From a virus: a DNA stretch of 34,454 nucleotides. Position numbers and translations under genes: made by a program. Location of the stretch: IMG/VR virus record IMGVR_UViG_3300048055_000061, positions 1-34,454 of that record. The stretch is one strand, 5' to 3'. The notes below the pieces were generated by a model, which was given only the letters and a program-made list of their open reading frames with translations, had not been told where the DNA came from and ran no database searches. Each line of letters starts with the position of its first letter. Positions within the stretch are counted from its first letter, which is position 1. Positions 4,624 to 20,681 of this stretch are shown one piece after another.

Positions 4624-5006
4624 GGGCCTGACAGGTTTCGACGGTGAGATCTGGAAGCGCCGACTGCGACCCGAGTGATCGTTGGCAGACTCGTAAAACG
4701 GCTGACACCACATACATGCCGAGGACAACACCGCGGCTCCTGAGAGCAACGCCCTGTGGGCGGAGTTCGATGCGCTGGAAGGCGCTCTCGTCTGAACGAC
4801 GAGCAGGACGGGGCTGACTGAGCCTTGCTACCCAATCAGTCGGACGGCTCGGATAGACGAGCGGACGGTCGGAGAGACGACGGACATGGCCGGAGAGACG
4901 GCCAACTGACCCGCAAGGGTGACGCCTCGGAGAGACGAGGAATGGTCGTACATCAGTCGTCGTAACCACTCATCGGACGGGGGTTCGATACCCCCCAGGT
5001 CCACCA
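4624..5006 (+). ncRNA. ssrA: tmRNA (ssrA)
   Basis: Transfer-messenger RNA for rescue of stalled ribosomes. The 5' end GGGCCTG is followed by ACAGGTTTCGACGG, the conserved tmRNA start. The 3' end has a GGGGG-TTCGATA-CCCCC T-arm, CAGGTCC, A73 and an encoded CCA (5004-5006). The acceptor stem pairs completely and has G3-U70, the alanine identity pair. A tag ORF at 4718-4795 starts with resume codon GCC and encodes AEDNTAAPESNALWAEF followed by DALEGALV, then TGA. The 25-residue length and ALV ending match the published mycobacteriophage Bxz1 tag as I recall it. Pseudoknots between 4796 and 4970 are likely but were not folded. The final A is also the first base of the next start codon. Confidence 0.92.
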
Positions 5007-5437
5007 TGAAGTCGGTGATCGAGCACGGGCCGGTCCCGGCCGAGCGATGCGACGAAGTGCTCGCCGAAGCGGCGCTGCACGTGAAGGCCGTCGGCATGAA
5101 GGTCATCTCGTGCGAGGGCTGGCGCGTGAAGCCCGGCAGCGTGGCCGACGCCTTGCTCAACGACATCGGCTTGGCCGTGAGCGAGGCTCAGGTCGTTCGC
5201 TACGGTCCCGGCGGCGAGTACGCCTGGCATACCGATGGACCCAACCGGCGCATCACGATGATCGTGCAACTCTCGGACCCGTCGTGGTACGAGGGCGGCG
5301 ATGTCGAGATCGAGGAGTTCGAGGCTCTCCTCCCGCGCGGTCGCGGCGGCGTCATCACGTTCCCCGCGCAGGTTCGTCATCGCACGCAGCCGATCACCAA
5401 GGGCGAGCGGTACGTGCTCGTCGGGTGGGTCCGCTGA
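5006..5437 (+). CDS. 2OG-Fe(II) oxygenase (prolyl 4-hydroxylase-like)
   Basis: A 143-residue protein with a compact double-stranded beta-helix dioxygenase core: RYGPGGEYAWHTDG supplies H75 and D77, RHRTQPITKGERYVLVGW supplies H125 and the 2-oxoglutarate-binding R135. The full HxD...H...R set is present, so it should be an active hydroxylase. The substrate is unknown; it could be a protein (including a ribosomal or release factor), nucleic acid or small molecule. The ATG starts on the last base of the tmRNA CCA, leaving no room for an RBS downstream of the tmRNA, so 3' processing of the tmRNA would leave a leaderless message. An in-frame upstream GTG/ATG region lies entirely inside the tmRNA and was not used. 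Confidence 0.85.
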   Translation: MKSVIEHGPVPAERCDEVLAEAALHVKAVGMKVISCEGWRVKPGSVADALLNDIGLAVSEAQVVRYGPGGEYAWHTDGPNRRITMIVQLSDPSWYEGGDVEIEEFEALLPRGRGGVITFPAQVRHRTQPITKGERYVLVGWVR

Positions 5438-5902: not shown

Positions 5903-5977
5903 GCGCTAGAAGCATTGGTGGTGATGTGCCGTCCTTCCAAGTCGGGGAACCGAGTTCGACTCTCGGCTGGCGCTCCA
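5903..5977 (+). tRNA. tRNA-Gly(TCC)
   Basis: Acceptor GCGCTAG/CTGGCGC, T73 and encoded CCA. D-arm GCAT/ATGT, anticodon loop CTTCCAA on CCGTC/GTCGG (one T-T mismatch), T-loop TTCGACT. Confidence 0.88.
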
Positions 5978-5978
5978 T

Positions 5979-6053
5979 GCGATCGAGGTCTACTTGGCGA
6001 GACGCCACGGTGCCATCGTGGAGAACCGGGTTCGACTCCCGGCGATCGCTCCA
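5979..6053 (+). tRNA. tRNA-Gly(GCC)
   Basis: Acceptor GCGATCG/CGATCGC with T73 and CCA; D-arm GTCT/AGAC; anticodon loop GTGCCAT on CCACG/CGTGG; T-loop TTCGACT. One base after the preceding tRNA. Confidence 0.93.
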
Positions 6054-6054
6054 A

Positions 6055-6129
6055 GGGTCATTGGTGAAACTGGAATCACATGAGCGTGAAGCACTCAGGT
6101 TCTCGGTTCGAGTCCGGGGTGGCCCACCA
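6055..6129 (+). tRNA. tRNA-Phe(GAA)
   Basis: Acceptor GGGTCAT/GTGGCCC, A73 and CCA. D-arm GTGA/TCAC; anticodon loop GTGAAGC on TGAGC/ACTCA (C-A closing mismatch); T-arm CTCGG/CCGGG. Confidence 0.88.
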
Positions 6130-6136
6130 CAAACGC

Positions 6137-6211
6137 AGACCTGTAACTCAGCGGCAGAGTGCCTCCGTCACATGGAGGTGGCCGAGGGTTCGAGTCCCTC
6201 CGGGTCTACCA
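6137..6211 (+). tRNA. tRNA-Val(CAC)
   Basis: Acceptor AGACCTG/CGGGTCT, A73 and CCA. D-arm ACTC/GAGT; anticodon loop GTCACAT on CCTCC/GGAGG; T-arm GAGGG/CCCTC. Confidence 0.93.
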
Positions 6212-6212
6212 G

Positions 6213-6288
6213 TGCCAGCGGACCATCGGGTGATGGTGTCGTTCTGATAAGGCGACCGTGCAGAGTTCGAGTCTCTGGCTGGCAACCA
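6213..6288 (+). tRNA. tRNA-Ile(GAT)
   Basis: Acceptor TGCCAGC/GCTGGCA fully paired, A73 and CCA. D-arm ACCA/TGGT; anticodon loop CTGATAA on TCGTT/GGCGA; T-arm CAGAG/CTCTG. Confidence 0.93.
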
Positions 6289-6300
6289 CAAGAAACGCAA

Positions 6301-6372
6301 CGACCTGTGGCTCAGAGGCAGAGCAGCACCTCGACACGGTGAAGGTCGCAGGTTCGATTCCTGCCAGGTCGA
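6301..6372 (+). tRNA. tRNA-Val(GAC), C33 variant
   Basis: Acceptor CGACCTG/CAGGTCG, A73, no CCA. D-arm GCTC/GAGC; anticodon stem GCACC/GGTGA with loop TCGACAC, so position 33 is C rather than the near-universal U. T-arm GCAGG/CCTGC. Isotype taken from GAC; the shifted loop makes this less certain. Confidence 0.7.
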
Positions 6373-6383
6373 CAACAAGACGA

Positions 6384-6460
6384 AGGCACGAGGTCCGATC
6401 GGAACGGACGCCGGTTTCCTAAACCGGAGAGTGCGGGTTCGAGTCCCGCCGTGCCTGCCA
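6384..6460 (+). tRNA. tRNA-Arg(CCT)
   Basis: Acceptor AGGCACG/CGTGCCT, G73 and CCA. D-arm GTCC/GGAC; anticodon loop TTCCTAA on CCGGT/ACCGG; T-arm GCGGG/CCCGC. Reads AGG, a rare codon in a GC-rich genome. Confidence 0.93.
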
Positions 6461-6461
6461 C

Positions 6462-6533
6462 GCACCCGTGGTTCATCAGGTAGAACACCGCTCTCGTAAA
6501 GCGGAGGGGCCGGTTCGAGTCCGGCCGGGTGCT
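6462..6533 (+). tRNA. tRNA-Thr(CGT)
   Basis: Acceptor GCACCCG/CGGGTGC, T73, no CCA. D-arm GTTC/GAAC; anticodon loop CTCGTAA on CCGCT/AGCGG; T-arm GCCGG/CCGGC. Confidence 0.93.
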
Positions 6534-6544
6534 CGCAACAACAT

Positions 6545-6619
6545 GCCTCTGTGGTCCCAATGGTAGGACGTGTCCGTGGTAAGGACGAGGTTCGGGTTCG
6601 ATTCCCGGCGGAGGCTCCA
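6545..6619 (+). tRNA. tRNA-Thr(GGT)
   Basis: Acceptor GCCTCTG/CGGAGGC, T73 and CCA. D-arm GTCC/GGAC; anticodon loop GTGGTAA on TGTCC/GGACG; T-loop TTCGATT. Confidence 0.93.
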
Positions 6620-6620
6620 T

Positions 6621-6692
6621 GCCGTTGCTCACGGCTGAGGCCCCCTGCCTTGTAAGCGGGAGGCTCGGGGTCGGCACCCGGCAGCGGCTCCA
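6621..6692 (+). tRNA. tRNA-Thr(TGT), atypical
   Basis: Acceptor GCCGTTG/CAGCGGC, T73 and CCA. Anticodon loop CTTGTAA on CCTGC/GCGGG. The D-arm CTCA-CGGC-TGAG joins the acceptor directly, and the T-loop GTCGGCA lacks TTC. Completes a set of three Thr isoacceptors. Confidence 0.78.
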
Positions 6693-6709
6693 ACGAGAGA
6701 GGGAACATC

Positions 6710-7349
6710 ATGCGAGTAGAGATCAGGCCCGGTGAAGGTGGTGACGACGCTCAACGCTTCGCTCAGGAGTGTCTTTGACGCGCTCCTTCGAGCGGCTCGG
6801 CGGCGTGGTGATGAGGTCCGCTCGCGATCGTCCGGGCGCACCCTCTCGTTCGAGATCGGCGACGGTGAGTGGCTGAGGCCCTTCGTCGGCACCCACCGCG
6901 TCCAGCGCATCCCCAAGGGCGCATCAGCGCGCCACACCTCCACCGCGACGATCGCTCTCGTGGACGGTGATAGCCGAGGGGCTATCACGTTGGCAGAGGA
7001 CGACATCGAGGAGCGGTTCGACCGAGGCTCGGGTCCGGGCGGTCAGCATCAGAACACGACGGACTCGGCGGTCACCGTGATCCATCGCCCGACGGGGACC
7101 AGCGTCCACATCGAGGGGCGATCGCAGACCGAGAACCGGCGCAAGGCGCGCTCCGAGTTGGCTCGACGGCTGGATCGCCGGGCCGAGGCCGACACGTTGC
7201 GTATCCGCAACGCCCAGCGCCGCGAGCAGATCACCTCGGGCGAGCGGCCGGTCAAGCAGTTCACCCACAACACCCAGCGCAACGAGGTCGTCGACCACGA
7301 GACGGGCAGGAAGTGGACGCTCGATCGTTGGATGAAGGGCCGGTGGTAA
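6710..7349 (+). CDS. GGQ release factor-like protein with programmed +1 frameshift (joined product)
   Basis: The ATG at 6710 (RBS AGAGAGGG) reads 22 codons, starting MRVEIRPGEGGDDAQRFA, up to CTT TGA at 6773-6778. Skipping one base to read GAC at 6777 continues to TAA 7349 for a 212-residue product. Both halves match class-I release factors: EIRPGEGGDDA and THRVQRIPKGASARHTST are domain-2 motifs, and GSGPGGQHQNTTDSAV carries the peptidyl-tRNA hydrolysis motif GGQ (110-112). The shift site CAGGAG-TGT-CTT-TGA-C reproduces the E. coli prfB frameshift signal, including the 3-nt spacing from the SD-like AGGAG. The N-terminal domain 1 is missing and no clear SPF or PxT codon-recognition motif is seen, so it may act in rescue or as an unusual RF. 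It begins 17 bases after a tRNA gene. Confidence 0.88.
6768..6779 (+). promoter_or_regulatory. RF2-type +1 recoding site
   Basis: SD-like AGGAG (in 6765-6769), one TGT codon, then CTT TGA C. Stalling at TGA when RF2 is limiting would favour slippage from CTT to TTT in the +1 frame and resumption at GAC. Confidence 0.85.
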
Positions 7350-7358
7350 GTTCACCGC

Positions 7359-7487
7359 ATGGCCGACCGTCAGCCGCGCTACTGCCAGATCTGCAAGACC
7401 TATCGCGTGTTCGAGGGGGACCGCGAGGTCGAACCGTGTGCCTGCGAGGAGTGCCCCGGCGAGTGCATCTTCCTCGAAGCGGACTAG
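7359..7487 (+). CDS. Small zinc-ribbon-like protein (42 aa)
   Basis: ATG 7359, 9 nt after the release-factor stop. The product contains YCQICKTYRVFEGD and then PCACEECPGECIF: seven cysteines in 42 residues, arranged as CxxC followed by CxCxxCxxxC, so one or two metal sites are likely. There is no strong RBS, so it may depend on translational coupling with the upstream gene. Its last codons overlap the end of the convergent gene at 7484. No function can be assigned. Confidence 0.55.
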   Translation: MADRQPRYCQICKTYRVFEGDREVEPCACEECPGECIFLEAD

Positions 7488-7870
7488 GCGGCGATGAGTC
7501 CCTCGAAGGTGTCGGGGATTCCAGCGGAACCGTCGAGCGCGGCGATGGCCTCGTCAACCTCGATGATGAGCGCATCCTTGATCCGCACAGCCCCGGAGCG
7601 CCAGAGCACCTCCTCGGGGAAGATGGCGTCGGGCATGTCGTCGGTGGCGAACAGCACCGCAGCCTTGCGGCCCTCGTCACCGATCACACCGCAACCGCCG
7701 CCGTACTGCACACCGGGAACAGAGGAGCCGCCAACCGCAACGGCGTAGGCGGACTCACGAGTACCGGCCCGAACCTCGCCGGTAGCGACGATGGCCTCGG
7801 CGTCCTCGGCGGTGGTGAAGTGCACGTAGAGGCCGGTGATGATCTTGGTGACCAGGGTGGTTGCGTCCAT
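7484..7870 (-). CDS. Hypothetical protein, possible ADP-ribosyltransferase-like fold
   Basis: A 128-residue protein, leftward from ATG 7870. It opens LVTKIITGLYVHFTTAEDAE and continues AIVATGEVRAGTRESAYAV, a pattern (short strand, HxT, helix, IxxxGxI) seen in ART/PARP-like and RNA 2'-phosphotransferase-like proteins. A later segment VLFATDDMPDAIFPEEVLW could hold a catalytic Glu, but no H-Y-E triad can be assigned confidently, so the fold is a tentative idea. A GTGCAC-N17-TACAGT promoter ends six bases before the ATG (leaderless). It is one of few leftward genes here and converges on the release factor operon. Confidence 0.65.
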   Translation of the reverse strand: MDATTLVTKIITGLYVHFTTAEDAEAIVATGEVRAGTRESAYAVAVGGSSVPGVQYGGGCGVIGDEGRKAAVLFATDDMPDAIFPEEVLWRSGAVRIKDALIIEVDEAIAALDGSAGIPDTFEGLIAA

Positions 7871-7876
7871 GCCCTT

Positions 7877-7905
7877 ACTGTAGCAGGCTCGACGACACCG
7901 TGCAC
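7877..7905 (-). promoter_or_regulatory. Promoter of the leftward gene, leaderless geometry
   Basis: Minus-strand GTGCAC, 17-nt spacer, TACAGT preceded by TGC, then AAGGGC and ATG 7870. Confidence 0.55.
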
Positions 7906-7920
7906 AAACCTCTCGATCGC

Positions 7921-7942
7921 TGTCCCGCGCTGGTGCTATCCT
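7921..7942 (+). promoter_or_regulatory. TGTCCC-N10-TATCCT promoter
   Basis: Seven bases separate TATCCT from an ATG at 7950. The sequence upstream (GATCGCTGTCCCG) is shared with the tmRNA promoter. Likely drives the tRNA block from 8074. Confidence 0.6.
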
Positions 7943-7949
7943 GACCCCC

Positions 7950-8036
7950 ATGACGTTGAACGTGCGAGATCGAGAGCGGGTGGAGCGATGGCTCCCCGTT
8001 GCGCGCGCTTCCGTCCCTGAACCCTCGGATCGGTAG
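7950..8036 (+). CDS. Small Arg-rich ORF (28 aa), leaderless
   Basis: ATG 7950 lies seven bases after the -10 box TATCCT, where +1 is expected. The product is MTLNVRDRERVERWLPVARA followed by SVPEPSDR, highly charged. The sequence alone cannot tell a real peptide from a chance ORF, but four other copies of this promoter are likewise followed by a start codon. It could be a leader peptide for the downstream tRNA transcript. Confidence 0.35.
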   Translation: MTLNVRDRERVERWLPVARASVPEPSDR

Positions 8037-8073
8037 CGGCGCTGGGGCATCAGCCCTCGCTCCGCCACATCAT

Positions 8074-8151
8074 GCCGCTGTAGGGGAAATGGTCAGACCC
8101 ACCTGCCTCTCACGCAGGGACTTGCCGGTTCGAGTCCGGTCAGCGGTACCA
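8074..8151 (+). tRNA. tRNA-Glu(CTC)
   Basis: Acceptor GCCGCTG/CAGCGGT, A73 and CCA; D-stem GGG/CCC with long loop; anticodon loop CTCTCAC on CCTGC/GCAGG; T-arm GCCGG/CCGGT. Confidence 0.92.
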
Positions 8152-8152
8152 A

Positions 8153-8228
8153 GGTCCATTGGAGGAGTCAGGCCGTCCTCGCCTCCCTGTCACGGAGGAA
8201 ACCACGGGTTCAAATCCCGTATGGACCG
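8153..8228 (+). tRNA. tRNA-Asp(GTC)
   Basis: Acceptor GGTCCAT/ATGGACC, G73, no CCA; D-arm GAGG/CCTC; anticodon loop CTGTCAC on CCTCC/GGAGG; T-arm ACGGG/CCCGT with TTCAAAT. Confidence 0.93.
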
Positions 8229-8242
8229 CGTAGCAACAACAA

Positions 8243-8318
8243 GCCCCGGTGGTGGAACGGTAGACACACCTGTCTTTCACACAGGCTCTTGCGGGTTCGA
8301 GTCCCGTCCGGGGTTCCA
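8243..8318 (+). tRNA. tRNA-Glu(TTC)
   Basis: Acceptor GCCCCGG/CCGGGGT, T73 and CCA; D-stem GTG/CAC; anticodon loop CTTTCAC on CCTGT/ACAGG; T-arm GCGGG/CCCGT. Confidence 0.92.
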
Positions 8319-8327
8319 GAAAATCAT

Positions 8328-8395
8328 GCGCCGGGTGCTGGGCACGGGTTGGCCTCCAAAACCGACCTTGCGGAGTTCGATCCTCTGACGGCGTG
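8328..8395 (+). tRNA. tRNA-Trp(CCA), compact
   Basis: Acceptor GCGCCGG/ACGGCGT (one mismatch), G73, no CCA. D-arm GTGC-TGG-GCAC directly abuts the acceptor. Anticodon loop CTCCAAA on TTGGC/ACCGA; T-arm CGGAG/CTCTG with TTCGATC. Only 68 nt. Confidence 0.78.
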
Positions 8396-8411
8396 CAACT
8401 CACGAGGTCGA

Positions 8412-8433
8412 TGTCCGATCCTCGTGCTACGGT
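8412..8433 (+). promoter_or_regulatory. TGTCCG-N10-TACGGT promoter
   Basis: TGC precedes the TACGGT -10. It lies between tRNA-Trp and the Leu tRNAs. An ATG follows after nine bases at 8443. Confidence 0.6.
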
Positions 8434-8442
8434 GAGGTCACC

Positions 8443-8508
8443 ATGAAGCAGCGACTACGACTTCGACGGCCCGGTGTGGCCGAGAGACTCCGACGATTGT
8501 CGGCGTAG
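8443..8508 (+). CDS. Very small Arg-rich ORF (21 aa)
   Basis: ATG 8443 follows the TACGGT box by nine bases, with GAGGTCACC between (a weak RBS). The product begins MKQRLRLRRPGVAERLRR: nine arginines in 21 residues. It overlaps the start of the tRNA-like hairpin at 8468, so translation would interfere with that structure. Possibly a regulatory or fortuitous ORF. Confidence 0.3.
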   Translation: MKQRLRLRRPGVAERLRRLSA

Positions 8509-8531
8509 TCACTCGCGCTCCTACCGGGCCA
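8468..8531 (+). other. tRNA-like hairpin element, possible tRNA remnant
   Basis: The ends GGCCCGGT and ACCGGGCC form an 8-bp acceptor-like stem. Inside is a second hairpin GACT-CCGAC-GATT-GTCGG-AGTC. There is no T-arm and no 7-base anticodon loop. It sits exactly where a tRNA would fit between Trp and Leu, so a degenerate tRNA is likely. Confidence 0.45.
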
Positions 8532-8543
8532 ACCCAACTCCTT

Positions 8544-8629
8544 GCGAGTGTGGCGGAACGGTAGACGCAGCAGTCTGAGAGGCTGCCGGGCTTCGGCCCA
8601 TGTGGGTTCGACTCCCTCCACTCGCACCA
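8544..8629 (+). tRNA. tRNA-Leu(GAG)
   Basis: Class II tRNA. Acceptor GCGAGTG/CACTCGC, A73 and CCA; anticodon loop CTGAGAG on GCAGT/GCTGC; variable arm GGGCTTCGGCCC; T-loop TTCGACT (one stem mismatch). Confidence 0.92.
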
Positions 8630-8630
8630 C

Positions 8631-8712
8631 GTGACCGTGGTGGAACTGGCAGACACGCTGTGCTCAGAACGCAGTGCCTTCGGGCGTGAGGGTTCAACTC
8701 CCTCCGGTCACA
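8631..8712 (+). tRNA. tRNA-Leu(CAG)
   Basis: Class II. Acceptor GTGACCG/CGGTCAC, A73, no CCA; anticodon loop CTCAGAA on CTGTG/CGCAG; variable arm GCCTTCGGGC; T-arm GAGGG/CCCTC. Confidence 0.93.
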
Positions 8713-8725
8713 CTCAACACAACTA

Positions 8726-8807
8726 GCCGATGTGGCGGAACTGGTAGACGCGCCGGATTCAAGTCCCGGTGTCCTCGGGCGTGTGGGTTCGACTCCCACC
8801 ATCGGCA
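8726..8807 (+). tRNA. tRNA-Leu(CAA)
   Basis: Class II. Acceptor GCCGATG/CATCGGC, A73, no CCA; anticodon loop TTCAAGT on CCGGA/CCCGG (A-C closing mismatch); variable arm GTCCTCGGGC; T-arm GTGGG/CCCAC. Confidence 0.92.
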
Positions 8808-8816
8808 CGCATACAT

Positions 8817-8891
8817 GCCCCGTTAGTTCAGTTGGATCAGAACGCGCGACTACGAATCGCGAGGCCGCAGGTTCGAGTCCTGCACGGGGCA
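8817..8891 (+). tRNA. tRNA-Arg(ACG)
   Basis: Acceptor GCCCCGT/ACGGGGC, A73, no CCA; D-arm GTTC/GAAC; anticodon loop CTACGAA on CGCGA/TCGCG; T-arm GCAGG/CCTGC. A34 would need deamination to inosine by host TadA. Confidence 0.94.
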
Positions 8892-8893
8892 CT

Positions 8894-8925
8894 GCGCCGG
8901 TTGGGTTCGACTCCCGACCGGGGCG
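8894..8925 (+). pseudogene. tRNA minihelix (acceptor plus T-arm only)
   Basis: GCGCC-GGTTGGG-TTCGACT-CCCGACC-GG-GGCGC folds as a 12-bp helix with a two-base bulge and a perfect T-loop. The D and anticodon arms are absent. It looks like a deletion product of a tRNA, located between two Arg tRNAs. Confidence 0.5.
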
Positions 8926-8971
8926 CTCAATACCTCACTCGATCGGGATACCTCACCGTGACAGTGAACAT

Positions 8972-9040
8972 GCCTCCATCAGCGGATCTGACGCTGGGCT
9001 TCCGAAGCCTGGTTGGTGAGTTCGACTCTCGCTGGGGGCG
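8972..9040 (+). tRNA. tRNA-Arg(CCG)
   Basis: Acceptor GCCTCCA/TGGGGGC, G73, no CCA; D-arm GCG/CGC; anticodon loop TTCCGAA on TGGGC/GCCTG; T-arm GTGAG/CTCGC. Slightly short between D and anticodon stems. Confidence 0.85.
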
Positions 9041-9044
9041 CTCT

Positions 9045-9114
9045 GCCCTCGCCTGTGGATCAGGTCCAGCGGCTTCTATCTGCATGGTGGCGGGTTCGAG
9101 TCCTGCCGAGGGCG
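9045..9114 (+). tRNA. tRNA-Arg(TCT), compact D-arm
   Basis: Acceptor GCCCTCG/CGAGGGC, G73, no CCA. D-arm CCTG-TGGAT-CAGG abuts the acceptor; anticodon loop CTTCTAT on AGCGG/CTGCA (A-A mismatch); T-arm GCGGG/CCTGC. Reads AGA. Confidence 0.82.
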
Positions 9115-9151
9115 CTCGATCGAGGGTGGCGCGCACGTCTCGGTGGTGTGG

Positions 9152-9157
9152 TACACT
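9152..9157 (+). promoter_or_regulatory. Extended -10 (TGG-TACACT)
   Basis: Seven bases before the ATG at 9165; no good -35. Consistent with a leaderless transcript. Confidence 0.4.
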
Positions 9158-9164
9158 TGTAGAC

Positions 9165-9548
9165 ATGAGGAACCACACCTACCGATGCGGGATCTGCGGC
9201 CAGACGAGCCAGCATCCTGCCGACGACGACACCCCGGTCTGCAACAACTCGGCCCACTGTGGCCTGCTGTTCGAGGACGAGATCGTCAAGCCCGAGGTCC
9301 CGACGAAGCGCAGCATCAAGTTCTCGCTCATCGGCGAGGGTCACGTCCAGGGCGACGACCGCGAGTACGAGGTCATCGTGCGAGGCCGGTACATCGGCAT
9401 CGTCTCCGCCGAGCAGCGTCCGGCTGTCCACAAGACCAACGAGGATCACTTCATCGACGGCTTCGCCTTCGGTGGCGAGGTCGACGGAGCCAACCGCTAC
9501 GGCTGGGGACGCACTCGGGCCGAGGCCGTGCTCGACGCCTTCTCCTGA
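9165..9548 (+). CDS. Hypothetical protein with N-terminal zinc knuckle (127 aa)
   Basis: Begins MRNHTYRCGICGQTSQ, with further Cys at VCNNSAHCG, a probable CxxC...C...C zinc site in the first 35 residues. The remainder looks beta-rich (SIKFSLIGEGH, YEVIVRGRYIGIVS) and ends GWGRTRAEAVLDAFS. No membrane segment. ATG 9165 was chosen because the TACACT box is seven bases upstream, and the long upstream extension of the frame passes through tRNA genes. It separates the Arg tRNAs from the Tyr/Ser block. Not recognised; possibly a small regulatory or RNA-binding protein. Confidence 0.7.
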   Translation: MRNHTYRCGICGQTSQHPADDDTPVCNNSAHCGLLFEDEIVKPEVPTKRSIKFSLIGEGHVQGDDREYEVIVRGRYIGIVSAEQRPAVHKTNEDHFIDGFAFGGEVDGANRYGWGRTRAEAVLDAFS

Positions 9549-9562
9549 ATCCACCACGGCGA

Positions 9563-9584
9563 TGTCCGGCACTGGTGCTACGAT
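9563..9584 (+). promoter_or_regulatory. TGTCCG-N10-TACGAT promoter
   Basis: Upstream of the tRNA-Tyr/Ser block. TGC precedes TACGAT, and a GTG codon follows seven bases later at 9592. Confidence 0.6.
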
Positions 9585-9591
9585 CGCTCTC

Positions 9592-9648
9592 GTGCGTACC
9601 ACCTATTCGTCCTCCGAGATCTGTCACGACTCCTCATCGAGTCGCTGA
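9592..9648 (+). CDS. Possible leaderless mini-ORF (18 aa, GTG start)
   Basis: GTG 9592 lies at the predicted transcription start. The product, MRTTYSSSEICHDSSSSR, is Ser-rich, unlike the Arg-rich siblings. Only the promoter geometry supports it. Confidence 0.2.
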   Translation: MRTTYSSSEICHDSSSSR

Positions 9649-9682
9649 CCGGGGCGCGCTCACATATCGGTGCGTCCCCCAC

Positions 9683-9761
9683 GAGAGGGACGCTCCAAGG
9701 TGGACAACCTGGCTGTAAACCGGGTGCTTCGGCGTGGTGGGTTCGATTCCCACGCCTCTCA
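9683..9761 (+). tRNA. tRNA-Tyr(GTA)
   Basis: Class II. Acceptor GAGAGGG/GCCTCTC (G-G at 7-66), A73, no CCA; anticodon loop CTGTAAA on CCTGG/CCGGG; variable arm with CTTCGG; T-arm GTGGG/CCCAC. Confidence 0.88.
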
Positions 9762-9767
9762 CTTCAA

Positions 9768-9850
9768 GGAAGGTGTGCGAGGCGTGGGCCTCGGTCCGGT
9801 TGCTACCCGGTGCGCTCCCTGTGGGTGAGGTTCGACTCCTCCGCCTTCCG
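9768..9850 (+). tRNA. tRNA-Ser(GCT)
   Basis: Class II. Acceptor GGAAGGT/GCCTTCC, G73; anticodon loop TTGCTAC on TCCGG/CCGGT; variable arm CCCTGTGGG; T-loop TTCGACT. Confidence 0.88.
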
Positions 9851-9902
9851 CTTGTCGCCGAGCGACGACATCGCGTAGATGTTGCCGATCGACGACAGAC
9901 AT

Positions 9903-9989
9903 GGAAGGTGCCGCTGGGTTGGCTGGCAACTGGTGTCGAAAGCCAGGGCGTTCTAACGGGCGGGGGTTCGACTCCTCCACCTTCCGCCA
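9903..9989 (+). tRNA. tRNA-Ser(CGA)
   Basis: Class II. Acceptor GGAAGGT/ACCTTCC, G73 and CCA; anticodon loop GTCGAAA on CTGGT/GCCAG; T-arm GGGGG/CCTCC. Confidence 0.9.
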
Positions 9990-10009
9990 ATGTGACCGAT
10001 CAGTCACAA

Positions 10010-10096
10010 GGAGAGTGGACCGGGCAGGCGTACCGGCACCCGTTGGAAGCGGGTTGGGTCCCGAAAGGGGGTGGGGTTCGAGTCCTCGTCTCTCCG
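10010..10096 (+). tRNA. tRNA-Ser(GGA)
   Basis: Class II. Acceptor GGAGAGT/TCTCTCC (T-T at 7-66), G73; anticodon loop TTGGAAG on ACCCG/CGGGT; variable arm GTCCCGAAAGGGG; T-arm TGGGG/CCTCG. Confidence 0.9.
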
Positions 10097-10126
10097 CTGA
10101 GAGGTTCTCGTCACGAGATCCTGTCT

Positions 10127-10172
10127 TGTCGTCGAACGGCGACATCGACATAGTGTCGTCGAACAGCGACAT
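10127..10172 (+). repeat. Two direct copies of a TGTCG...CGACA hairpin
   Basis: TGTCGTCGAACGGCGACAT (10127-10145) and TGTCGTCGAACAGCGACAT (10154-10172) differ by one base and repeat every 27 nt. Each can form a 5-bp stem. A related hairpin occurs at 9853-9870. They fill spacers between Ser and Cys tRNAs and could be processing signals. Confidence 0.6.
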
Positions 10173-10177
10173 GCCAC

Positions 10178-10254
10178 GCATCGGTGCCCGAGCGGCCAAG
10201 GGAACGGTCTGCAAAGCCGTACAACCGTGGGTTCGAGTCCCACCCGGTGCTCCA
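10178..10254 (+). tRNA. tRNA-Cys(GCA)
   Basis: Acceptor GCATCGG/CCGGTGC, T73 and CCA; D-stem CCC/GGG; anticodon loop CTGCAAA on ACGGT/GCCGT; T-arm GTGGG/CCCAC. U73 is the Cys identity base. Confidence 0.92.
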
Positions 10255-10277
10255 CGATCAGAAACCTCCACGGGCAA

Positions 10278-10299
10278 TGTCCCGTGCGCGTGGTACCTT
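10278..10299 (+). promoter_or_regulatory. TGTCCC-N10-TACCTT promoter with palindrome
   Basis: TGG precedes TACCTT; ATG 10307 follows seven bases later. The upstream element is the right half of CACGGG-CAAT-GT-CCCGTG, a palindrome that could also bind a regulator. Confidence 0.6.
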
Positions 10300-10306
10300 G
10301 GTTCCC

Positions 10307-10381
10307 ATGAGGATCCAACGACCTACCCCAGCGAATCGGCAGCGGCGCAAGCCGCATCAGCCGACGCGCGCTCGGGCGTAG
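10307..10381 (+). CDS. Small Arg-rich ORF (24 aa), leaderless
   Basis: ATG 10307 lies seven bases after TACCTT. The product begins MRIQRPTPANRQRRKPHQP and ends TRARA: about one third Arg/Lys, no hydrophobic core. With the ORFs at 7950 and 8443 it forms a set of basic mini-ORFs at the same place relative to the same promoter, just ahead of tRNA blocks. Translation is not proven. Confidence 0.35.
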   Translation: MRIQRPTPANRQRRKPHQPTRARA

Positions 10382-10433
10382 GCGGGTTCCTCCCTAGAAC
10401 CTCCTCACACCTCGTCCGAGCGACTCAACGCTC

Positions 10434-10505
10434 CGGGGTGTGGCTCAGTGGTAGAGCACTCGGTTTGGGACCGAGGGACCGTAGGTTCGATTCCTGCCAC
10501 CCCGA
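10434..10505 (+). tRNA. tRNA-Pro(TGG)
   Basis: Acceptor CGGGGTG/CACCCCG, A73, no CCA; D-arm GCTC/GAGC; anticodon loop TTTGGGA on CTCGG/CCGAG; T-arm GTAGG/CCTGC. Confidence 0.94.
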
Positions 10506-10510
10506 CTGAC

Positions 10511-10546
10511 ATAAGCGTTGTGCTCATCGCGCAACGCTGGCTTATG
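10511..10546 (+). other. Inverted repeat between Pro tRNAs
   Basis: AGCGTTG (10514-10520) pairs with CAACGCT, flanked by ATAAGC and GCTTAT. A strong stem-loop in the spacer, possibly a processing site. Confidence 0.5.
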
Positions 10547-10552
10547 AGTCAA

Positions 10553-10627
10553 CGGGTGGTAGCGCAGTCTGGTCAGCGTACTCGCTTCGGAAGCGAGTGG
10601 TCGCAGGTTCAAATCCTGCCCACCCGA
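10553..10627 (+). tRNA. tRNA-Pro(CGG)
   Basis: Acceptor CGGGTGG/CCACCCG, A73; D-arm GCGC/GCGT; anticodon loop TTCGGAA on CTCGC/GCGAG; T-arm GCAGG/CCTGC. Confidence 0.94.
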
Positions 10628-10639
10628 CGGAAACAACAA

Positions 10640-10713
10640 CGGACTGTGGCGCAGTTTGGTAGCGCACTCGCCTGGGGGGCGAGGGGTCGGGAGTTCGAGT
10701 CTCCCCAGTCCGA
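10640..10713 (+). tRNA. tRNA-Pro(GGG)
   Basis: Acceptor CGGACTG/CAGTCCG, A73; D-arm GCGC/GCGC; anticodon loop CTGGGGG on CTCGC/GCGAG; T-arm GGGAG/CTCCC. The anticodon stem is identical to the CGG isoacceptor, suggesting duplication. Confidence 0.94.
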
Positions 10714-10726
10714 CGCAAGACAACCT

Positions 10727-10797
10727 TCCCGGTTGGTGTAATGGCAACACGCGTGACTCTGAATCACGAGTTGGGAGTTCGAGCCTCTCGCTGGGAG
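10727..10797 (+). tRNA. tRNA-Gln(CTG)
   Basis: Acceptor TCCCGGT/GCTGGGA, G73; D-stem GTG/CAC; anticodon loop CTCTGAA on CGTGA/TCACG; T-arm GGGAG/CTCTC. Confidence 0.92.
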
Positions 10798-10862
10798 CGC
10801 AAGGAAAGCCACACGATCGAGAGCCGATCGGTGGGACAAGATGTGGGAGGAGGTGCTTCCCG

Positions 10863-11378
10863 ATGAACAAGGACGTGCTGGTGCTCGACGCGGCGTACAT
10901 GCCCCTCGGCGTCATCTCCCCGCGCAGGGCGGTGGTGTTGGCGTTGATGGACCTGGCTGAGATCGTGGCTGAGGGAGAAGGGGAGTGCCGCTCCCCGTCG
11001 ATCTCCGTCCCGTGGCCCGAGGTCGTCCGGCTCAACTGGATGGTCAAGGTGCCGGATCGTGCTCGCATCCCGGTCAACAAGAGGAACGTGCTCGCTCGCG
11101 ACAACGGGCGGTGCGCCTACCGGCGCTCCAACCCCGACGAGTGCGAGGGCAAGGCATCGTCCGTCGACCACGTGCGGCCTCGGTCGCGCGGTGGTCGTCA
11201 CCGTTGGGACAACGTGGTGGCCTCGTGCTCGCCATGCAACTCCCGCAAGGACAACGCTCTCCTCACCGAGATCGGCTGGGAGTCAGCCAACGATCCCTAC
11301 GTGCCGCGAGGCGCGCTGTGGTTCGCTCTGGCTCACACCCCGCTGCCGTCGTGGGAGCCGTACTTGGCGGCGGCATAG
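10863..11378 (+). CDS. HNH endonuclease
   Basis: A 171-residue protein; ATG 10863 follows GGAGGAGG. The C-terminal half is an HNH nuclease: RDNGRCAYRRSNPDEC, then SSVDHVRPRSRGG (catalytic DH), WDNVVASCSPCNSRKDN (the N and CxxCN parts). The first zinc knuckle, normally CxxC, reads CAYR, so one metal ligand may be lost or supplied by the nearby Cys of DECEG. The N-terminal half (VLVLDAAYMPLGVISPRRAV) is the usual partner domain of this actinophage HNH family. It lies inside the tRNA array, where free-standing homing-type nucleases are common and may help gene conversion. The stop is 5 nt before tRNA-Gln. Confidence 0.88.
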   Translation: MNKDVLVLDAAYMPLGVISPRRAVVLALMDLAEIVAEGEGECRSPSISVPWPEVVRLNWMVKVPDRARIPVNKRNVLARDNGRCAYRRSNPDECEGKASSVDHVRPRSRGGRHRWDNVVASCSPCNSRKDNALLTEIGWESANDPYVPRGALWFALAHTPLPSWEPYLAAA

Positions 11379-11383
11379 GGCCT

Positions 11384-11454
11384 TCGGGGATCGTTCAACG
11401 GCAGGACGCGACTCTTTGGAAGTCGTCATGGAGGTTCGAGTCCTCCTCCCCGAG
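11384..11454 (+). tRNA. tRNA-Gln(TTG)
   Basis: Acceptor TCGGGGA/TCCCCGA, G73; D-arm GTTC/GGAC; anticodon loop CTTTGGA on CGACT/AGTCG; T-arm GGAGG/CCTCC. Confidence 0.94.
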
Positions 11455-11494
11455 CGCAAGACAAGCACCTGATCGAGAGGTCGGGGATCATCAT

Positions 11495-11569
11495 GGTGAT
11501 CGTGGTCCAACGGCATGACGCCGGGTTGTGTCCCCGGAGATGGCGGTTCGATTCCGCTCGGTCACCCCA
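11495..11569 (+). tRNA. tRNA-His(GTG)
   Basis: Encodes the extra G-1 opposite C73, the histidine identity pair, and CCA. Acceptor GTGATCG/CGGTCAC; anticodon loop TTGTGTC on CCGGG/CCCGG; T-arm GGCGG/CCGCT. Confidence 0.93.
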
Positions 11570-11570
11570 T

Positions 11571-11641
11571 TGCAGAGTGGTGAAATGGCATCACGCGCGG
11601 TTGTTACCCGCGAGTTCGGGGTTCGAGTCCCTGCTTTGCAG
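11571..11641 (+). tRNA. tRNA-Asn(GTT)
   Basis: Acceptor TGCAGAG/CTTTGCA, G73; D-arm GTGA/TCAC; anticodon loop TTGTTAC on CGCGG/CCGCG; T-arm CGGGG/CCCTG. Confidence 0.93.
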
Positions 11642-11670
11642 CCATGTTCAGTCTGATCTTCTTCCGTGAT

Positions 11671-11699
11671 GCGAGCGGCCGAGCACACCTCGGCCTCGC
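11671..11699 (+). other. Strong stem-loop between Asn and Lys tRNAs
   Basis: GCGA-GC-GGCCGAG-CACAC-CTCGGCC-TCGC: an 11-bp stem with a 2-nt bulge, no T-tract. It lies in a 93-nt spacer that otherwise shows no gene. Confidence 0.45.
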
Positions 11700-11734
11700 G
11701 AAACGCGCCCGGCGAAAGCCCAAGCGCGCACCGC

Positions 11735-11808
11735 GGAGGTAGCACCCGACAGGACTGGGTACCGGGCTTTTACCCCGGATTGAGTGGGTTCGAGTCCCAC
11801 TGCCTCTA
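11735..11808 (+). tRNA. tRNA-Lys(TTT)
   Basis: Acceptor GGAGGTA/TGCCTCT, A73; D-arm ACCC/GGGT; anticodon loop CTTTTAC on CCGGG/CCCGG; T-arm GTGGG/CCCAC. Confidence 0.93.
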
Positions 11809-11812
11809 CCGC

Positions 11813-11887
11813 GGGGGTGAAGCATTGACGGCGATGCACCCGGCTCTTACCCGGAAGAACAGGGTTCGACTCCCTGTACCCCTACCA
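11813..11887 (+). tRNA. tRNA-Lys(CTT)
   Basis: Acceptor GGGGGTG/TACCCCT, A73 and CCA; D-arm GCAT/ATGC; anticodon loop CTCTTAC on CCCGG/CCGGA; T-arm CAGGG/CCCTG. Last tRNA of the array. Confidence 0.93.
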
Positions 11888-18291: not shown

Positions 18292-20681
18292 TGGGTTGCT
18301 GCAAGGTTCGCATCCCCGCCGATCTTGACGCGATCGTCTTTGCCCCCACGCCGGGCGTTGTCTCCAATGCCAACGCGACGAACTGGCTCGATGGCGTTCC
18401 GATCGTCTCTGGCCTCTACGCGAGCAACCAGGGCGATCCGACTGCGGTCGTCACTGGCGACCAGTCCGCGATCCTCGGTGGCCTCGGGAACTCGGTGGTC
18501 GGCGATCGCTCGGCCATCGTCGCTGGTGACTCTCATTCCATCGTGGCTGACGACGCCTTCATCGGCGGTGGTGAAAGTAACTCCATCGTCTCGGGAGACG
18601 GCTCGGCCATCATCGGCGGAAGCGTTCTGTTCGTTGGCAACTCAATCTTGGGTGCCGAAGCCTCGGCCATCATTGCTGGTGCAGCCAACTCAGTGACCGC
18701 CGACGGCTCCCTGGTGGGAGCGGGTGCCGGGAACTCAGTGGCAGCCATCGTTTCGGCCATCGTTGCCGGGGCCTCGAACACCATCACCGCTCAGATCGTT
18801 GGTCGCGCCTTCATCGGCGGTGGAGACTCGAACACCATCACGGGATTCGCTGCCCGAGCGAGTGCCATCCTCGGTGGCGAGTCGAGCATCATCACGTCGG
18901 GGGCGAGAGGGTTCATCGCGGGCGGAACGCTCCACATCCTCGACTTGGCCCCATCGTCGGCGATCATCGCCGGTCAGTCCCACACCATCGACGGTGTAAT
19001 GGATTCGGTCATCGCTGGCGGCACCGGAAACTCGATCCTTCCGGGGCTGACGCTCCCGACCGCCGAGCACAACGGCATCATCGCCGGGCAGTCCCACACG
19101 ATCGAAGGTGGAGACGAGAACTTCATCGGCGGCGGCGCAGACAATCTCATCGACGCTGTAGATGCCAGCGCGGATCGCGTCCGCAATGGCATGGTTGCCG
19201 GTTTCTCTAACTCGGTTCTCCTCGGCACCGACAACTTCATCGCTGGTGGGCGCAGTCACACCATCGGCGATGGTGTGACTGCGGTAGCGCGCTCGGCAAT
19301 CGTTGGTGGCGACACGCACACCATCGTTGCCGATGACGCCTTCATCGGTGGCGGCGACCCGCACTCGATCACAGGTGACCGAGGGGCCATTGTTGGCGGC
19401 TCGAACAACTTGGTCACCGGAGCCGATGGGTTCGTCGGCGGCGGCGACCGTGGTGCCGCTACCGGACCCCGCTCCATCGTGGTCGGCGGAACGAGGGGGT
19501 TCAGCGCCTCGGCAGACTCGGCGAGCATTGGTGGGGCTGGGTTCCCCTTCAACGGCGGCGCTCGCTCCATCGTGCTGGGCGGAGACTCCCCCTTCCTCGA
19601 CGACGCGGCCGACTCGGGCATCGTTGCTGGAACCTTCCACGCGATCACGGAGTTCGTCGGCCCTTCGGCGCGAGGCTTCATCGGTGGAGGCAACGGCTCC
19701 TTCATCGACGGTGGCGTTGACGCTGGGATTGTCGCCGGTCGCTTCCACTACATCGAGGGTCCTTTGGCTGACCGCTCGGCGATCGTCGGTGGCACCTTCC
19801 ACTACATCTCCGGGGAGGACTCGTTCATCGGCGGCGGTAGCGGACCCGCCACGATCGGCCCGATTCGCAACCACAGGATCACCGGAGATCGCTCGGGTAT
19901 CGTCGCTGGCTTCAACGGAGACATCACCGCCAACGATGGCTTCATCGGCGGCGGCTCCGGGGCGACTGTCGCCAACATCCGTTCCGCGGTAGTTGGTGGG
20001 TCGGGCAACTCCGTGAACGCCGAGGACAGCGCGATCATCGGCGGCACGTTCGGCCTCATTGGCGTCTCGGCACCGGGAGCGTCTGTGATCGCTGGTGGTG
20101 TGGGCAACACGATGTCCTCGAACCGCTCGTTCATCGGCGGCGGGGACTCCAACGCGATCAACGGAGCGTCGCGCAACGCGATCATCGGCGGACTGTCCAA
20201 CTTCTTCGGTATCGGCTCGAACGACAATGGGGCGATCTGCGGTGGCTCGCTGAACGGCATTGACGGGGCGCGTGATTACGGCGGCATCCTCGCCGGGCGC
20301 AACAACCGAGTCCAGGCCACTGACGCCGCGATCGCTGGCTCCAACGGGGCGACCATCGTGTTCGGTGTGAGCACCACCGGCTTCATCGGCGGGTCTGGCA
20401 CCGGGGCGACGGTCAGCGCGGCTCGCGGCTCGATCCTCTCGGGCGGCGTGGTCACCTCCCCCGACTCGGTGGCGATCTGCGGCGGGACGGCCAGTGCCGG
20501 ATCACGCACCTTCGCTCACGGCACCGGCCTGACCAACCCGGTAGGCTTCCGCGGCGTGGTGCCGGTCACGGCTCCTGTTCTCGCTGCGATCCCCGGACCA
20601 ACTGGCATCGCCGGATTGGACGCTTGGATCGCATCTATCGACGCTGCACTGCTCACGCAGGGATTGGCTAGGAGGCCATAG
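18291..20681 (+). CDS. Repeat-rich beta-solenoid fibre (YadA-head-like)
   Basis: A 796-residue protein, ATG 18291 overlapping the previous stop. From about residue 55 to 760 it consists of roughly 14-residue repeats alternating SAI[I/V][A/G]GxxHxI and xFIGGGxxNxI, for example SAIVAGDSHSIVADDAFIGG. Such short A/S-I-x-G-G-x-x-N-x-I repeats build left-handed trimeric solenoids in YadA-type adhesin heads and some phage fibres. The N-terminus MGCCKVRIPADLDAIVFAP is likely the attachment region, the C-terminus (IAGLDAWIASIDAALL) a helical cap. Probably receptor- or surface-binding. It lies in the head region rather than after the tape measure gene, so it could be a head fibre. Confidence 0.75.
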   Translation: MGCCKVRIPADLDAIVFAPTPGVVSNANATNWLDGVPIVSGLYASNQGDPTAVVTGDQSAILGGLGNSVVGDRSAIVAGDSHSIVADDAFIGGGESNSIVSGDGSAIIGGSVLFVGNSILGAEASAIIAGAANSVTADGSLVGAGAGNSVAAIVSAIVAGASNTITAQIVGRAFIGGGDSNTITGFAARASAILGGESSIITSGARGFIAGGTLHILDLAPSSAIIAGQSHTIDGVMDSVIAGGTGNSILPGLTLPTAEHNGIIAGQSHTIEGGDENFIGGGADNLIDAVDASADRVRNGMVAGFSNSVLLGTDNFIAGGRSHTIGDGVTAVARSAIVGGDTHTIVADDAFIGGGDPHSITGDRGAIVGGSNNLVTGADGFVGGGDRGAATGPRSIVVGGTRGFSASADSASIGGAGFPFNGGARSIVLGGDSPFLDDAADSGIVAGTFHAITEFVGPSARGFIGGGNGSFIDGGVDAGIVAGRFHYIEGPLADRSAIVGGTFHYISGEDSFIGGGSGPATIGPIRNHRITGDRSGIVAGFNGDITANDGFIGGGSGATVANIRSAVVGGSGNSVNAEDSAIIGGTFGLIGVSAPGASVIAGGVGNTMSSNRSFIGGGDSNAINGASRNAIIGGLSNFFGIGSNDNGAICGGSLNGIDGARDYGGILAGRNNRVQATDAAIAGSNGATIVFGVSTTGFIGGSGTGATVSAARGSILSGGVVTSPDSVAICGGTASAGSRTFAHGTGLTNPVGFRGVVPVTAPVLAAIPGPTGIAGLDAWIASIDAALLTQGLARRP

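Follow-up and report, generated by a model that had tools for sequence, protein, structure and literature searches.

A shortened RF1-like release factor of uncultured phages, probably gated by a prfB-type +1 frameshift

The window, by which we mean the whole stretch of 34,454 nucleotides of viral DNA analysed here, holds a dense tRNA array (positions 5903–11887), within which a release-factor-like (RF-like) gene is placed directly after Thr tRNAs, as it is in relatives. The array and the features of the gene described below are all on the plus strand. An SD-like stretch read from the sequence, AGAGAGGG (6696–6703), lies upstream of an ATG (6710–6712), and the same ATG is preceded by an SD-like stretch in all five loci examined. 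This ATG opens 22 codons, MRVEIRPGEGGDDAQRFAQECL, that end at a TGA; the resulting ORF1 (6710–6778) encodes the N-terminal part of domain 2 (VEIRPGEGGDDA). Near the end of ORF1, AGGAG (6765–6769), the putative anti-SD-pairing stimulator, ends exactly 3 nt before the shift codon of a CTT TGA C heptamer (6773–6779), which consists of the slippery Leu codon CTT (6773–6775), the premature TGA (6776–6778) and a 3′ C (6779). ORF2 (6777–7349) follows in the +1 frame, from GAC at 6777 to TAA at 7347–7349, and its 190 aa comprise the rest of domain 2, the GGQ domain 3 and domain 4; the fused product of both frames has 212 aa. The codon-recognition loop reads IPKGASAR (HRVQRIPKGASARHTS, 6909–6932); the RF1 loop is two residues longer, and the threonine of PxT is gone. 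The GGQ peptidyl-tRNA hydrolysis motif (7038–7046) is invariant in five of five aligned members.

Further along the array lies a phage tRNA-Leu(GAG) gene (8544–8629, plus strand), which also occurs in the islands of four relatives (G001, G002, G003 and G004) and is predicted to read the CUU shift codon. Directly 5′ of the RF-like gene, positions 6620–6693 look tRNA-like by eye, ending in GGCTCCA and with TGT at the anticodon position; no tRNA is called there by ARAGORN or Rfam. An HNH endonuclease gene (10656–11378) is also found within the array.

The initial annotation, made from the DNA alone, had proposed that the two frames make one release-factor-like protein, and the fusion bears this out. 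The Pfam PCRF match goes from E=0.004 with ORF2 alone to 2e-8 with the fusion, and ORF1 thus contributes part of the release-factor fold; the Pfam RF-1 domain matches the fused protein at 1.6e-19, and the prfA alignment of the fusion covers RF1 residues 108–329 without a break. Since this alignment starts at residue 108, domain 1 is absent, as had been noted from the DNA; the ATG has its own SD and the tRNA array upstream. The gene had also been styled after RF2, which is apt for its prfB-type signal and not for the protein: the fused protein and its relatives are RF1-like, with NCBIfam E-values for the fusion of 1.4e-35 for prfA against 1.8e-20 for prfB and 2.7e-17 for PrfH. All three scores are far under the curated cut-offs (63 versus 166.65 bits for the PrfH equivalog), and none of the PADLOC models matches the protein. 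The SPF motif of RF2 is missing from the IPKGASAR loop and PxT is lost in the window clade, both in line with the first reading of the sequence.

An AlphaFold2 model of ORF2 alone has a mean pLDDT of 80, low around GGQ, and resembles ribosome-bound RF1 (TMq 0.80). ORF2 starts inside a helix in this model, and the window's shift site is therefore within the domain-2 helix, which agrees with the earlier placement of the shift in domain 2 and not in an N-terminal leader. By sequence, then, the fused protein is an RF1-like release factor of domains 2–4 with an intact GGQ. According to PMC1586002, which cites Mora et al. 2003, RF1 remains active both in vitro and in vivo when domain 1 is missing.

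The junction had been recognized as a copy of the prfB recoding signal, and the comparison holds up. The E. coli prfB site is AGGGGG TAT CTT TGA C, and the window has the same layout: CTT, UGA and C, an SD-like sequence ending 3 nt upstream, a short ORF1 followed by a long +1-frame ORF2, and a class-I release factor as the product. It differs from bacterial prfB in several respects. Relative to the AGGGGG of prfB, the pairing of the window's AGGAG with the anti-SD is moved by one register towards CTT, the phage site lies in domain 2 whereas that of prfB lies in the N-terminal leader, and the product is RF1-like, lacks domain 1 and is phage-borne.

The window gene is one of a clade of six distinct genes from independent metagenomes: the window itself, four IMG/VR contigs (G001, 171 kb, G002, G003 and G004; RF loci L001, L002, L003 and L005) and L142, of which L144 is a copy from a second metagenome. 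The RF-like genes of the four contigs are 57–61% identical to that of the window, and on each contig the gene sits in a tRNA array directly after Thr tRNAs. All six clade genes carry CTTTGAC at the identical codon; the SD core of L003 is AGGAC, versus the AGGAG of the window clade. The heptamer has been kept despite wide synonymous divergence (ORF2 pS 0.58), and CTT is the shift codon in all six genes, yet it makes up just 11–19% of Leu codons genome-wide. Reassignment of UGA fails to explain the break, because UGA is the commonest stop (54–73%) in all five genomes, no UGA-reading tRNA was found in the window or the four relatives, and readthrough would not restore the frame.

What the initial annotation missed is that the gene is no single oddity and belongs to a widespread phage family. 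A tblastn search led to LR745208.1, a huge phage of 485 kb (L053; second assembly L059), in which a domain-1-less RF1-like gene (L053, 1377–2031) is broken at codon 37 by GGAGG GGT CTT TGA C. Scanning IMG/VR with a profile of such proteins gave 117 related contigs, of which 80 were kept; 51 of the 80 have a +1 break at CTTT-stop. With the window clade included, the set comprises 50 distinct genes (less than 90% identical), which form 38 clusters at 70% identity. Because the family was searched for by protein, the DNA signal played no part in the selection. Exactly one RF-1-domain gene was present in each of the 38 phage contigs tested. Other routes gave less: the exact DNA pattern GG.GG..(D/E)A..CTTTGAC hit 14 stretches in IMG/VR and no RF gene among them, a scan of genome contigs matched only a cellular prfA, no RF-like relative was found among annotated actinophages (cultured phages), and release-factor matches in 'phages' were mostly unannotated records or ordinary prfA or prfB.

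The premature stop in the 50 genes is UGA in 37, UAG in 12 and UAA in one, and it is followed by C in 39. An SD core ending exactly 3 nt 5′ of CTT is likewise present in 39 of the 50; among the other CTTTRA sites of that DNA it occurs at 2 of 287. With the VEIR motif as the reference point, the break lies at 32 codons in 42 genes, at 20 in the six genes of the window clade, and at 42 and 48 in one gene each, so that there are four positions overall and most family sites are 12 codons beyond that of the window clade. The commoner site falls, by alignment, in the loop after the domain-2 helix. The suggestion that the signal arose independently or was moved is in keeping with the sites of other phages, which are at least 12 codons further on. 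Most of the wider family keeps PxT or PxN in the loop, and we looked for a correlation between loop type and gate stop codon and saw none. In a quick tree, with many open forks, built mostly from fragments of uncultured phages and unable to separate gains from losses, the window clade falls outside the main group as a single lineage with strong support, and repeated switches of the gate stop codon are seen without evident loop change.

About 20 relatives lack the shift; in nine of them the reading frame runs on unbroken, and some eleven carry an in-frame UGA in the corresponding region. The in-frame UGA stands where relatives frameshift in L072, L119, L123, L130, L135 and L128; in L072 and L119 UGA is otherwise a normal stop, and there it is possibly an alternative, readthrough gate. 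In four huge phages of 634–735 kb (L049, L051, L052 and L058) the RF-like gene has at least one in-frame UGA and nearby stops are nearly all UAA; UGA is probably reassigned in these phages. On Variovorax plasmids (L048, 3965–4669; four near-identical records), an in-frame UGA (GGC TGA CTC) interrupts an RF1-like gene that lacks domain 1, and the two parts are annotated as separate genes; this could be either a readthrough gate or a pseudogene.

With the family at hand, two explanations that dispense with frameshifting can be weighed. The two frames differ by a single base, as they would after a sequencing error or in a decayed pseudogene. Against this speak the recurrence of the heptamer at one codon position in all six clade genes, which come from independent metagenomes, the dozens more genes with a CTTT-stop break and the signal, the near-identical copies in separate assemblies (L142/L144, L059/LR745208), and dN/dS values of about 0.1–0.27 in both the ORF1 and the ORF2 parts. 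The comparative data refute error and decay alike, and we put the chance of either at next to nil.

The other explanation is that ORF2 is initiated internally, leaving ORF1 as a leader peptide or relic. In principle, ribosomes might load at the internal SD, and in some loci the +1 frame is open upstream and contains GTG codons. A start in the ORF2 frame within four codons of the site is present in only one of the 50 genes, however, 18 lack any start of this frame upstream, and the start position is conserved nowhere across the family. Selection points the same way. Across five loci (the window and G001–G004), pN is 0.100 and pS 0.553 for ORF1 in frame 0, and 0.242 and 0.577 for ORF2, whereas the ORF1 region read in +1 has a pN of 0.205 that exceeds its pS of 0.121, that is, it lacks purifying selection. 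From this pattern it follows that ORF1 is selected as a frame-0 protein and ORF2 as a +1 protein, and that ORF2 is no independently started gene reaching upstream. Since ORF1 is also part of the release-factor fold, internal initiation is very improbable, and we reject it on the lack of starts and of +1-frame selection. We are nearly certain that the frameshift is real.

The host setting bears on how such a signal would work. The major capsid protein of the window matches 448 phage records, almost all of them actinophages (phages of Gordonia, Mycobacterium, Microbacterium, Arthrobacter and Streptomyces), and for this reason the host is probably an actinobacterium. The initial annotation had taken actinobacterial prfB genes to lack the shift, and this is confirmed in the literature: the motif is wholly absent from Actinomycetota prfB, with a frameshift in 0 of 2,658 genomes (PMC12421855, mBio 2025). 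The B. subtilis prfB motif shifts at 6.6% in Mycobacterium smegmatis versus 52.7% in B. subtilis (PMC12421855). High RF2 could be the cause of the low shift in M. smegmatis, in which case the phage gene would stay off until RF2 is limiting; if the poor shifting is intrinsic, little phage product would be made.

The islands that carry the gene are translation-directed: they hold near-complete tRNA sets, to which relatives add RNA ligase, Pnkp-like and RlaP-like RNA-repair genes. In G001 (L031, 726–1619, 4325–5011 and 7776–8582; L066, 3605–4699) the repair genes near the RF-like gene are a T4 RnlA-type RNA ligase, a Pnkp-like kinase-phosphatase, an RlaP-family nucleotidyltransferase and a calcineurin-like phosphatase, several of which are common to G002, G003 and G004. 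Such genes fit translation damage, for example tRNA cleavage by host defences. They also recall PrfH, which acts with RtcB2 and is, like the phage factor, a domain-1-less GGQ factor related to RF1 and RF2 and tied to RNA repair. The phage factor differs in its score, far under the PrfH cut-off, and in that no adjacent RtcB partner was seen; no frameshift is known for PrfH. G003 also has, at 19426–19501 on the plus strand, the strand opposite to the rest of its array, a CTA-anticodon (Pyl-type) tRNA called by ARAGORN that is possibly false.

The window contains a tmRNA gene with a 25-aa tag (4624–5006), overlapped by a frame (4919–5437) with a 2OG-Fe(II) oxygenase match. A partnership between this tmRNA and the RF-like factor had been suggested, and we abandoned the idea: the tmRNA is in the window alone, and none was found in the contigs of the four relatives, one of them 171 kb long.

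UGA is read by RF2 and UAG by RF1. The reading we prefer, with a probability of roughly 0.7, is that a prfB-type +1 frameshift gates a phage RF1-like factor without domain 1 on slow termination, and that this factor serves as backup termination or ribosome rescue. Its basis is the pair of frames with homology to one protein, conservation, selection on both frames, the conserved signal with its spacing, and the RF1 fold; judged from these comparative data, the gate appears to be selected and programmed. A ribosome would translate the 22 codons and arrive at UGA-C with CUU in its P site, while the internal AGGAG, 3 nt upstream, would strain the P and E sites. Where RF2 is plentiful, termination would release a 22-aa peptide; where termination at UGA is slow, slippage of tRNA-Leu from CUU to UUU would yield the 212-aa factor, with the phage tRNA-Leu(GAG) supplied for the shift codon. 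The switch would thus come on when termination is limiting in infection, through RF2 for UGA genes and RF1 for UAG variants. The factor would then enter the A site and hydrolyse peptidyl-tRNA via its GGQ, on ribosomes that we take to be stalled or terminating, as a backup when host termination fails in infection.

That the shift occurs in the host and responds to release-factor activity is what we infer from this analysis; sensing of RF2 would be the natural reading for the UGA genes, but in 12 of the 50 family members the stop is UAG, a codon of RF1. Several points weigh against the gate. Shifting as low as the 6.6% seen in M. smegmatis (PMC12421855) could make the full product scarce in an actinobacterial host, the SD core of the window clade departs from that of prfB in its register, with AGGAC in L003, and some relatives have no break or have an in-frame UGA instead.

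A different function for the same shift would be autoregulation as in prfB, with the product terminating at its own premature stop and so limiting its own synthesis. UAG at 12 of 50 sites here, versus none in 8,164 prfB gates (PMC12421855), is what one would expect if the cognate factor is RF1-like, and in the window clade the loop is shortened and PxT lost, so that specificity may have changed. Autoregulation would need a relaxed, UGA-accepting loop in the window clade; in the UAG variants ordinary RF1-type specificity would suffice. It misfits most family members, because 37 of the 50 gates are UGA and most of their products nevertheless have an RF1-type PxT or PxN loop, which should not read UGA; the stop has, moreover, switched repeatedly on the tree without the loop evidently following. 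We consider autoregulation unlikely.

The frameshift might also sense nothing and serve only to hold at a fixed low level a factor whose excess is toxic. Excess release factor is toxic in Bacillus subtilis, RF2 more than RF1 (PMC12421855), and the interconversion of UGA and UAG gates on the tree is allowed by a pure dosage device. A weak start site would be a simpler way to set a dose, however, and the stop at every site and 3′ C at most would tie the dose to termination speed, whether or not this is the selected use. A pure dosage device is, to our mind, decidedly unlikely.

The nearest published cases to the gate on termination are bacterial prfB and the eRF1-like gene of Mimivirus (R726) and Megavirus (mg280). 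In the latter a +1 shift takes place at CUU UAG C or CUU UAA C, and the Mimivirus site has been shown experimentally to shift in E. coli (PMC3521657). These too are virus-encoded class-I release factors made via a +1 frameshift; they differ in belonging to the eukaryotic/archaeal eRF1 family, of unrelated fold, in having an extra stop-codon readthrough and in their eukaryotic host. Bacterial RF1 (prfA) is the best profile and structural match, and its PxT is kept in most of the wider phage family; it has domain 1 and no gate, and its loop is altered in the window clade. No prfA gene is known to use a convincing programmed frameshift (PMC12421855), and the +1 CUU-stop sites of RECODE are all prfB (PMC10885494). 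Release factors 1 and 2, likewise phage-encoded termination factors, have been reported in huge phages, and frameshifting is absent from that paper's main text (PMC7162821). We found no description of a frameshift-gated phage release factor in the open-access papers searched, and priority is not certain.

Many uncultured large phages, then, carry a shortened RF1-like gene with a putative frameshift gate. A broader proposition, to which we would give about even odds, is that several large-phage lineages have, more than once, placed an RF1-like factor for rescue or termination under the control of a stop-codon sensor. Host termination capacity (RF2 via UGA, RF1 via UAG, perhaps in-frame UGA readthrough) would then govern a counter-measure of the phage; the actinophage clade would do so in a phylum whose prfB has lost the mechanism, with a new-loop factor that may read signals besides normal stops. 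Standard annotation splits or misses such genes, which would appear as two fragments. The family offers minimal release factors with altered codon loops. The CUU-UGA +1 frameshift has hitherto been seen as private to prfB; with its presence in dozens of phage RF1-like genes, at various positions and with UAG besides UGA, it would become a portable termination sensor. The phage gates would be natural reporters of termination capacity in infected cells, and would allow a test of whether the signal works on actinobacterial ribosomes in the first place.
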